From positions 1,766,001-1,830,000 of the forward strand of contig LT629302.1 of assembly GCA_900104375.1 (NCBI GenBank): a stretch of 64,000 nucleotides of DNA. Direction: 5' to 3'. The DNA is from Flavobacteriaceae bacterium MAR_2010_188 (GTDB lineage Bacteria; Bacteroidota; Bacteroidia; Flavobacteriales; Flavobacteriaceae). Shown one piece after another: positions 33,854 to 46,128 of this stretch (positions within the stretch are counted from its first letter, which is position 1; each line of letters opens with the position of its first letter). The notes beneath the pieces were generated by a model that was not told the origin of the DNA, searched no databases, and was given only the letters and a program-made list of their open reading frames with translations. Position numbers and translations under genes: made by a program.

Positions 33854-33954
33854 GTGTTGTTTCTTATTTATTTAAGTGGAATAAATCCAACTTATCAATT
33901 TCTAATAGCTTTCTTGAGAATAGCACTACGCTTTTCTCTTGTTGCCAGGGATGT

Positions 33955-34104
33955 GAGGCTTCCCTCAACTTTGCCCGATATAAACTTCTCGCTTCTCCTC
34001 CCTCGCTTCGCACGCTTCGACTGCCCTCAGCGCAGGCTTGTTGAGAGGCTTCCCTCGACTTAGCTCGGGATAAACTTCTCGCTTCTCCTCCCTCGCTTCG
34101 CACG
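33955..34104. repeat. Two 60-bp direct repeats abutting the 3' end of tRNA-Trp
   Basis: Copies at 33955-34014 and 34045-34104 begin GAGGCTTCCCTC and end CCCTCGCTTCGCACG, with about 5-6 differences in 60 bp. The second copy runs into the last 4 nt of the tRNA. Between them is CTTCGACTGCCCTCAGCGC, a variant of a dispersed CTTCGACAGGCTCAGTG element also found at 45.8 and 46.0 kb. Open frames across this stretch are by-products of the repeats. Confidence 0.75.
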
Positions 34105-34173
34105 GGTTGAGAGGCTCGAACTCCCGACACCTGGTTTTGGAGACCAGTGCTCTACCAACTGAGCTAAACCCGT
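34101..34173 (-). tRNA. tRNA-Trp (anticodon CCA)
   Basis: 73-nt cloverleaf: acceptor ACGGGTT/AACCCGT, D arm TAGCTCAGTTGGTAGAGCA, anticodon stem CTGGT with loop CTCCAAA giving CCA, T arm with GTTCGAGCC. No CCA is encoded. It lies between tuf and secE as in the E. coli-like cluster order, apart from the repeats at its 3' side. Confidence 0.97.
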
Positions 34174-34234: not shown

Positions 34235-35422
34235 TTAGTCTAAGATTTCAGTAACCTGACCAGCACCTACTGTACGACCACCCTCACGGATTGCGAAACG
34301 TAAACCTACAGTCATTGCAATCTTTTGGATTAATTCTACAGTAATTGTCAAGTTGTCTCCTGGCATAACCATTTCAACACCATCAGGAAGCAAAATGTTA
34401 CCAGTTACATCAGTTGTACGTACGTAAAACTGTGGACGATAGTTATTATGGAATGGAGTGTGACGTCCACCTTCTTCTTTCTTAAGAACGTAAACCTCAG
34501 CTTTAAATTTAGCGTGTGGTGTTACTGAACCTGGCTTAACGATAACCATACCTCTAGAGATTTGAGATTTCTCAATACCTCTTAAAAGGATACCAGCGTT
34601 ATCTCCAGCTTCACCTCTATCAAGAATCTGACGGAACATTTCGATACCAGTTATAGTAGAAGTCAATTTTTCAGCTCCCATACCAATGATCTCAACTGAA
34701 TCTCCAGTTTTGCCAATACCAGTTTCGATACGACCTGTCGCAACAGTTCCACGACCAGTAATAGAGAATACATCCTCGATAGGCATTAAGAAAGGTTTGT
34801 CTATTTCACGTAATGGTTCTTCAATCCAAGTATCAACAGCAGCCATCAATTCTATTACAGAATCAACCCATTTTTGTTCACCGTTAAGTGCACCTAAAGC
34901 AGAACCAGCAATTACAGGTCCATTATCTCCATCATATTGATAGAAAGATAATAAATCTCTGATTTCCATCTCAACCAATTCTAATAGCTCTTCATCATCA
35001 ACCATATCAACTTTGTTCATGAAAACAACCATACGAGGGATACCAACCTGGCGTCCTAATAGGATGTGCTCACGAGTTTGTGGCATTGGACCATCTGTAG
35101 CAGCAACCACCAATATAGCACCGTCCATTTGGGCAGCACCTGTAACCATGTTCTTTACGTAATCCGCGTGACCTGGACAGTCAACGTGAGCGTAGTGACG
35201 ATTTGCAGTTGCATACTCAACGTGAGATGTATTAATTGTAATACCTCTTTCTTTTTCTTCTGGTGCATTATCGATCTGATCGAACGATTTTGCTTCAGAA
35301 TAACCTGCATCAGCTAATACTTTAGTGATAGCAGCAGTTAATGTTGTTTTACCGTGATCTACGTGTCCAATTGTACCTATATTTAAGTGTGGTTTTGAAC
35401 GATCGAAAGTTGCCTTTGCCAT
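34235..35422 (-). CDS. tuf: Elongation factor Tu
   Basis: A 395-residue GTPase that delivers aminoacyl-tRNA to the ribosome. G1 is GHVDHGKTT, the effector region [14 protein letters not shown]3 [12 protein letters not shown] and G4 NKVD. Domains 2 and 3 are complete, ending [13 protein letters not shown]. The kirromycin-site region is normal. It lies between tRNA-Thr(GGT) and tRNA-Trp, so the tRNAs and tuf are probably cotranscribed. Confidence 0.98.
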
Positions 35423-35475
35423 GTTTAATTTATTTAATCTAAATTTATAATTATCTACTCTTTGTTTAATTTTTG

Positions 35476-35547
35476 AGCCAATGACGGGAATTGAACCCGT
35501 GACCTCTTCCTTACCAAGGAAACGCTCTACCCCTGAGCTACACCGGC
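35476..35547 (-). tRNA. tRNA-Thr (anticodon GGT)
   Basis: 72-nt cloverleaf: acceptor GCCGGTG/CATTGGC (two G-T pairs), D arm TAGCTCAGGGGTAGAGC, anticodon stem-loop TTCCTTGGTAAGGAA giving GGT, T arm ACGGGTTCAATTCCCGT. It is 53 bp upstream of tuf, equivalent to E. coli thrT. Confidence 0.96.
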
Positions 35548-35617
35548 GTAAAGTATTTAATTCCTCTCCTTAATTAACTCATAGAAGGAAGAGATTCCTG
35601 CCTTCGCAGGACTGTTA

Positions 35618-35973
35618 GAATGAGAAACCGGATTTACCGCAAAACGTGCGGCACAGGCTTCTCACCTTTCATTATAACTAACCTGAAAATTCTAAAATCA
35701 AATAGAATTCTCAAACTATCAATGAACTTTGAGCGAGAGACCGGGTTTACCGCAACAAGTGCGGCACAGGCTTCTCACACTTCATTATAACTAACCTGAA
35801 AATTCTAAAATCAAATAGAATTCTCAAACTATCAATGAACTTTGAGCGAGAGACCGGGTTTACCGCAACAAGTGCGGCACAGGCTTCTCACCCTTCATTA
35901 TAACTAACCTGAAAATTCTAAAATCAAATAGAATTCTCAAACTATCAATGAACTTTGAGCGAGAGACCGGGTT
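35618..35973 (-). repeat. Three tandem 113-bp repeats carrying the 3' end of tRNA-Gly
   Basis: Units 35618-35730, 35731-35843 and 35844-35956, followed at 35957-35973 by the tRNA-Gly 3' end itself, so 3 full units plus 17 bp. Units 2 and 3 differ at one base; unit 1 is diverged where it matches the tRNA end. Units 2 and 3 each hold an exact copy of the last 16 nt of tRNA-Gly, AACCCGGTCTCTCGCT, in the same orientation. Each unit also has two hairpins: GAGAATTCTA/TAGAATTTTC and CCGCA/TGCGG. The array occupies the spacer between tRNA-Gly and tRNA-Thr(GGT) and must be transcribed. A palindrome CCTGCCTTCGCAGG (35597-35610) lies just beyond it. Confidence 0.95.
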
Positions 35974-36030
35974 CGAACCGGCGACATTCAGCTTGGAAGG
36001 CTGACGCTCTACCAACTGAGCTACTCTCGC
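35958..36030 (-). tRNA. tRNA-Gly (anticodon TCC)
   Basis: 73-nt cloverleaf: acceptor GCGAGAG/CTCTCGC, D arm TAGCTCAGTTGGTAGAGC, anticodon stem GTCAGCC region with loop CTTCCAA giving TCC, T arm CCGGTTCGAACCCGG. No encoded CCA. Its 3' terminal 16 nt recur in the tandem array directly downstream. Confidence 0.97.
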
Positions 36031-45631: not shown

Positions 45632-45701
45632 GTTTTTGGTTTTTGGTTTTTGGTTTTTGGTTTTTGGTTTTTGGTTTTTGGTTTTTGGTTTTTGGTTTTT
45701 G
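45632..45701. repeat. Perfect (GTTTTTG)10 heptanucleotide tract
   Basis: Ten uninterrupted GTTTTTG units, 70 bp, ending 10 bp upstream of the DUF2851 start codon. On the minus strand it reads CAAAAAC. Seven is not a multiple of three, so copy-number change would shift any frame running through it and alter promoter-to-start spacing. Confidence 0.95.
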
Positions 45702-45743
45702 AGAATTTTAAATTAGGAAAAATAACTTTCCACTTTTCAATTC

Positions 45744-46128
45744 TCCTGCAAAAAAAACCTAAACGTTCAAAAAGACCTTTAGCATAGAGCACATCGACAG
45801 GGTCAGTGGGACAAGATTATTGTTTTTTTAAGAATCTATTTACTAATCTCTCCATTCGCTATTATCTCAATTCGCTAATTTCCCAATTCGCTAATTCGCA
45901 TATCTGTTTTCTCTTATCTCTTTTCTATTCTCTTTCAAAAAACCTAAACGTTCAAAAAGACCTTTAGCATAGCACTTCGACAGGCTCAGTGTGACAAGAT
46001 TATTGTTTTTTTTTAAGAATTTATTTTCTAATCTCTCCATTCACTATTATCTCTATTGGCTAATTTCCCAATTCGCTAATTCGCATATCTGTTTTCTCTT
46101 TTCTCTTTTCTCTTTTCTCTTTTCTCTA
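45744..46128. repeat. Two ~185-190-bp direct repeats between DUF2851 and cysteine synthase
   Basis: Copies at about 45744-45935 and 45936-46128. Both start with CAAAAAACCTAAACG, contain CCTTTAGCATAG, a dispersed CTTCGACAGGCTCAGTGTGACA-type element (45790-45813 and 45973-45996), TTATTGTTTTTTT, ATCTCTCCATTC and AATTTCCCAATTCGCTAATT, and end in TTTTCTC runs. They differ by scattered substitutions and small indels. The roughly 340 bp hold no gene. Confidence 0.9.
46092..46126. repeat. (TTTTCTC)5 heptanucleotide tract
   Basis: Five perfect units at the right end of the second duplicated copy, 7 bp from the stop codon of the cysteine synthase family gene. The equivalent place in the first copy is degenerate. 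Confidence 0.85.

Follow-up and report, generated by a model that had tools for sequence, protein, structure and literature searches.

The three tandem repeats behind a tRNA-Gly gene of Flavobacteriaceae bacterium MAR_2010_188 are one case of a large family of hairpin units that lie behind tRNA genes in the Flavobacteriaceae. Units of this family measure 63-120 bp and contain an element of 29-30 nt with the layout GAGAAG-(TTTAT or CCTGT)-stem-loop, followed by A58 of the tRNA; the hairpin of a family unit can be given as GAGAAGUUUA. No description of the flavobacterial unit family was found in the literature searched on rtT, on flavobacterial REP sequences or on the core sequence, and as far as that literature goes, the family, its tRNA-matched arms and the common GAGAAG are new. 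The window analysed here is a stretch of 64,000 nucleotides of contig LT629302.1, and all positions refer to it.

A tandem array of tRNA-tail units in the tuf operon

Tandem Repeats Finder placed the array at 35622-35973, with a period of 113, 3.1 copies, 97% matches and a score of 662. The host gene, tRNA-Gly(TCC) at 35957-36030 (ARAGORN, Rfam RF00005), and all three 113-bp units are on the minus strand, and the last 17 nt of the tRNA (35957-35973, AACCCGGTCTCTCGCTC) are the source of the tail copies. Unit 1 (35844-35956), which scores 43.2 bits with covariance model R1 and is part of its training set, comprises a trailer hairpin (35894-35952), a left arm AAGGGT (35890-35895), the GAGAAG element (35861-35889) and an exact tail copy (35844-35860). 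Unit 2 (35731-35843) has its left arm at 35777-35782, its GAGAAG element at 35748-35776 and an exact tail copy at 35731-35747. In unit 3 (35618-35730), detected like unit 2 by Tandem Repeats Finder and model R1, the left arm at 35664-35669 and the GAGAAG element at 35635-35663 are followed by a decayed tail at 35618-35634 (13/17). Units 1 and 2, both closed by exact 17-nt tRNA-Gly tails, differ at a single base (GGGTGAG and GTGTGAG, respectively); compared with unit 1, unit 3 carries 7 differences in 113 bases, and 4 of the 17 positions of its tail are changed (AATCCGGTTTCTCATTC). An earlier note on this DNA had described three 113-bp units behind tRNA-Gly, two of them with tail copies and one base apart, and this was confirmed at 35618-35973. 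Its claim of two hairpins per unit was also borne out, with folding z values of -5.2, -5.7 and -6.4 for units 1, 2 and 3 and 0/200 shuffles equally stable. The tRNA-Gly units of the window are of the CCTGT form and have a divergent apical loop, GCCGCACTTGTTGCGG, while GAGAAG and the inner-stem base are retained. With the tRNA-Gly tail, the window's units can also fold differently, GGGUGAGA and UCUCGCUC then forming a helix.

The array lies inside a gene cluster on one strand, Thr-Tyr-Gly-Thr-tuf-Trp-secE-nusG, and E. coli shows the same order in thrU-tyrU-glyT-thrT-tufB. A search for terminator-like sites from tRNA-Gly to tuf found none. Downstream on the minus strand follow tRNA-Thr(GGT) at 35475-35547 and tuf (elongation factor Tu) at 34235-35422, the latter identified by reading its open reading frame and translation. 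The segment between unit 3 and tRNA-Thr (35548-35617, minus strand, TAACAGTCCTGCGAAGGCAGG...) was identified by spacer comparison as the displaced ancestral Gly-Thr spacer: in several relatives TCCTGCGAAGGCAGG... stands immediately after tRNA-Gly, and in the window this sequence is found behind unit 3. The new DNA therefore comes after the tRNA tail and ahead of the old spacer. Most relatives have a distance of 8-200 bp from tRNA-Gly to tRNA-Thr and no repeat. The sole other genome of the genus has no repeat at the tRNA-Gly locus and none elsewhere by covariance model. Relatives also have tandem duplications of whole tRNA-Gly genes, and one locus (L007, genome G034) holds at least six complete tRNA-Gly genes in tandem, spaced about 137 bp.

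Units behind other tRNAs and across the Flavobacteriaceae

A second host gene in the window is tRNA-Trp(CCA) (34100-34173, minus strand), whose units at 33953-34086 had been missed in the earlier note. Trp unit A (34010-34086, minus strand) is of the canonical GAGAAGTTTAT type and scores 57 bits with model R1 (E 1.4e-14), being outside the training set. Its arm is at 34081-34086 and its element at 34051-34080, and its tail copy (34040-34050 plus 34010-34014) is interrupted by a nested palindrome at 34015-34039. Trp unit B (33953-33996, minus strand), 90 bp from unit A, is decayed and scores 27.2 bits (E 1.3e-5), also outside the training set. The folding of the Trp units is not unusually stable (z -0.08). 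The covariance model found two further units in the same genome, one behind tRNA-Met and one behind tRNA-Ile in a ribosomal RNA operon. The tRNA-Ile unit has the unusual apical loop of the Gly units, and a search that allowed up to 2 mismatches found this loop nowhere else in the genome. Tail units inside ribosomal RNA operons behind tRNA-Ile were seen both in this genome, in the 16S-tRNA-Ile-tRNA-Ala spacer, and in Gillisia limnaea. The cultured strain G. limnaea DSM 15749 has four tRNA-Ile units, each of 63 bp; Gelidibacter gilvus and Salinimicrobium terrae are further cultured carriers. Elsewhere in the window, at 45632-46127, there are simple and 185-bp tandem arrays (GTTTTTG x10, TCTCTTT) with the palindrome CGACAGGCTCAGTGGGACAAG.

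A tail-first search of 397 family genomes looked for tRNA-Gly tails without a preceding T-loop, with the tail sequence as the sole query. Such tails occur in 20 of the 397 genomes, from 19 genera, several as arrays of 2-5, and the reversed control gave 0. GAGAAG lies within 70 nt upstream of 26 of the 30 distinct tail copies, mostly exactly 30 nt ahead, against a background of 4%; three of the remaining four are broken by contig ends and one has AAGAAG. Scanning GTDB representatives for the TTTAT-type core gave at least 120 stretches, nearly all from Flavobacteriaceae among the matches listed; the core was fixed in that scan, and its conservation is to be judged from the tail-first search instead. 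The host tRNAs cover at least 13 amino-acid types: Thr, Trp, Gln, Leu, Gly, Ile, Asn, His, Met, Ala, Pro, Ser and Lys. Among the matches listed in the core scan, the tail always copies the neighbouring tRNA, beginning at A58 and running to the 3' end, at least 120 core matches have an upstream tRNA on the same strand and 0 have an antisense tRNA only. The check by which the earlier note proposed to refute its reading, conservation of tRNA ends in relatives, came out in its favour, with tails kept and always matching the neighbouring tRNA. One reservation is that the other genome of the genus carries no units.

Model R1 was built from 55 units, including the three tRNA-Gly units of the window. 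At E <= 0.01 it has matches in 130 of 249 family genomes, and in 118 of the 210 of high quality; the weakest of these matches may be due to chance. In a sample of the phylum at E <= 1e-6, matches occur in 13 of 395 genomes, 11 of those Flavobacteriaceae. Two contigs labelled as CPR bacteria (L157, L180) have units behind tRNA-Ser and tRNA-Pro, which may reflect wrong binning.

Two loci involve a protein gene. At L223, tRNA-Leu tail units come after a truncated manA-like gene, and the left arm (GGGGAGGC) belongs to the manA-like gene itself but is complementary to 8 nt of the tail. At L084, the 3' end of a dnaK-like gene (...DFEEVK stop) is seemingly duplicated around a CCTGT-type palindrome, in the same arrangement as at tRNAs but on a protein gene.

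Pairing, covariation and turnover of the units

The hairpin is closed by the upstream arm with tail positions 59-62 or more, and the 5' bulge GAGAAG(UUUA or CCUG), in which GAGAAG is near-invariant, sits opposite A58. Over 152 units, the arm pairs with tail positions 59, 60, 61 and 62 in 97, 97, 94 and 85% of cases, wobble included. Contiguous pairing of the outer arm averages 4.9, compared with 2.9 when arms are shuffled among units (highest value in 500 shuffles, 3.2). The two innermost arm pairs extend into the T-loop and vary by tRNA type (GT/AC, GC/GC, AC/GT, TC/GA), and because of this variation a plain copy of the T-stem would not yield them. In the 55-sequence alignment, the inner helix is paired in 275/275 cells, all pairs together are paired in 90.1% of cells compared with 75.5% when shuffled and at most 52.6% when slid, and double changes occupy 126 cells compared with 45. 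Wobble in the inner stem, read on the sense strand, is U.G in 26 cases, G.U in 17 and C.A in 0, and a larger set has 19 G.T and 1 C.A. Sense-strand G-U wobble without C-A argues for selection on a single sense strand, which would most simply be RNA.

At its own locus, the trailer after the tRNA resembles the trailer after the tail with a similarity of 0.44, compared with about 0.2 between genomes. We rejected a travelling cassette for this reason: the trailer resembles its own locus more than other genomes, so the unit does not travel together with it. Tail positions 58-73 of 89 last copies match the tRNA at 94% identity, compared with 49% for the adjoining trailer (ungapped). In genome pairs with trailers 70-85% alike, the tails differ at 1.3 of 16 positions and the sequence behind the tail is 70% alike. 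These values suggest that arm, element and tail evolve more slowly than their surroundings. Some distal tails are decayed or split by other palindromes, so the tail's acceptor part is not essential everywhere. Such nested insertions and decay also leave only a weak case for purifying selection on this part. Copy number is variable and presence in the family is patchy. The core AAG(TTTAT/CCTGT) with its stem also occurs away from tRNAs, there without GAG, which fits a mobile palindrome. Units of different tRNAs within a genome show 7.1 differences compared with 6.0-6.2 between genomes, and concerted evolution of the hairpin within genomes was rejected as a general process on these figures.

Comparison with E. 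coli rtT and other systems

The earlier note had likened the array to E. coli rtT, and the comparison bears this out more strongly than the sequence by itself could show. In the tyrV/rttR region of E. coli K-12, there are three tail copies, each starting exactly at A58 (AATCCTTCCCCCACCACCA), and 90 nt upstream the Tyr units carry GGGGAAGGAT, a perfect complement of positions 59-68 that is directly followed by GAGAAG. The Rfam RtT consensus retains GGAUGAGAA, in which GGAU pairs with AUCC. RtT (RF00391) is also matched at lysV and after each tRNA-Lys in the lysT operon, and the tails there begin at position 58; a 5-nt arm is present in 4 of these 6 Lys matches, GAGAAG in none, and the record carries no annotation of them. 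Tail copies in the E. coli tRNA loci tested are confined to Tyr and Lys, none being found at the Gln, Met, Leu, Gly, Cys, Arg, His, Pro, Thr, Val and Ala loci.

RtT (rttR, tyrT/tyrV) and the flavobacterial units are thus alike in their tandem arrangement on the strand of the tRNA, in tails that start at A58, in an arm complementary to position 59 onward (10 nt in E. coli Tyr), and in a closing helix of arm and tail after which GAGAAG follows. They differ in size, the E. coli unit being 178 bp long, with about 90 nt in its apical region, and the flavobacterial unit 63-120 bp with an element of 29-30 nt; in CCA, which lies within the tail in E. coli RtT, unlike in the flavobacterial units; and in host range, which is at least 13 tRNA amino-acid types in Flavobacteriaceae and only Tyr and Lys among the E. 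coli loci tested. The likeness therefore stood in the A58 start, the complementary arm and GAGAAG, but not in the covariance models: RF00391 found nothing in the window at E <= 10 and nothing in 15 related loci at E <= 1, model R1 gave no match in E. coli, and Rfam 15 at gathering score returned only tRNAs in the window. The flavobacterial units are rtT-like by layout and not proven members of RF00391. The chance of GAGAAG at that fixed place is about 1 in 4096, and homology with E. coli rtT is likely on this sequence comparison, with convergence as the alternative.

REP and Rickettsia palindromic elements share with the units a short hairpin, and related palindromes are dispersed in flavobacterial genomes; the units differ in their place at tRNA 3' ends, their single orientation, their matched tail and arm, and the lack of a linked transposase. 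Another small RNA from the trailer of a tRNA transcript is 3'ETS-leuZ (E. coli glyW-cysT-leuZ), which acts as a small RNA sponge and, unlike the flavobacterial units, has neither a tRNA-tail copy nor tandem units.

Discussion

The E. coli rtT has been reported as a small RNA released by tRNA 3'-processing. We give roughly even weight for and against the reading that the flavobacterial units are its counterpart, a family of tRNA-tail hairpins released as small RNA. A unit would be transcribed together with its tRNA and cleaved at the tail by tRNA 3'-processing enzymes, which would free a stable small RNA roughly as long as one unit and tRNA-like at its 3' end, with the invariant bulge as a possible contact for a common partner. 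Copy number would shift when tail copies recombine with one another, and the tail farthest from the tRNA would decay. In favour of this reading are the tRNA specificity, the covarying sense-strand structure, the spread in the family and the features shared with E. coli rtT. Against this reading speak the patchy distribution, with no units in the other genome of the genus, the decayed distal tails and the Trp units, which lack unusual fold stability; the sense-strand bias could stem from a single-stranded DNA intermediate. More tentatively, rtT may belong to a class of tRNA-tail RNAs across Proteobacteria, Bacteroidota and CPR whose defining features would be a host-tRNA copy that begins at A58, a complementary arm and a GAGAAG bulge, and which tRNA-processing enzymes would free as small RNAs.

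A close rival of the small-RNA reading, somewhat less probable in our estimate, is a selfish palindromic element of the REP or Rickettsia kind, specialised for T-loops, that enters at TTCG|A58 and leaves the tRNA intact; a tail copy on both sides would keep the gene, and the hairpin would be the recognition structure in single-stranded DNA or RNA. Such an element would account for a junction that is always G57|A58, for the ancestral spacer behind the distal tail with new DNA between, for trailers that are local (0.44 own against own, about 0.2 between genomes), and for patchy presence with variable copy number, extending to the two CPR contigs. The apical loop common to the tRNA-Gly and tRNA-Ile units of the window's genome and the related palindromes away from tRNAs, where GAG is missing, point the same way. 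However, GAGAAG with the tail is bound to tRNAs, general homogenisation within genomes is not seen (7.1 versus 6.0-6.2 differences), and no transposase is linked to the units. Y1 transposase (PF01797) is present in 12 of 18 carriers versus 5 of 18 non-carriers and absent from the window's genome, and on this absence a Y1/RAYT transposase (REP, IS200-type) was rejected as the driver. Phage carriage was likewise rejected, the core being found in no viral contig. The RNA and selfish readings may both apply, if a once mobile palindrome was retained as RNA.

Two further explanations appear improbable. Replication slippage at the T-arm could have produced neutral tandem duplications, and template switching the perfect arms; this would fit the tandem arrays, the tandem duplication of whole tRNA-Gly genes in relatives, the partly duplicated trailers and the decay of the last copy; it is already disfavoured by the junction sequence common to the units, and slippage alone cannot account for a common GAGAAG and a covarying stem in many genera and at least 13 tRNA types. 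Att sites typically show identity that runs from the T-loop to the end of the tRNA, and the units might be att-site scars left by tyrosine-recombinase islands, which use the 3' ends of tRNAs for integration. That identity and the island-type tRNA-Leu 3' halves upstream of units at two loci (L143, L145) are in its favour, but units of 63-120 bp, in tandem, with the same hairpin at every tRNA and no island genes, make this the least probable of the explanations.

E. coli rtT has long been a lone curiosity without clear function. The many independent copies described here lie behind many tRNAs, show strong covariation and share one invariant single-stranded motif; they provide a comparative basis together with cultured test organisms. 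If the units are RNAs, the tRNA operons of this major family of marine bacteria would hold an overlooked class of small RNAs. Selfish units would show how a small element can inhabit essential genes, always leaving the tRNA end intact.
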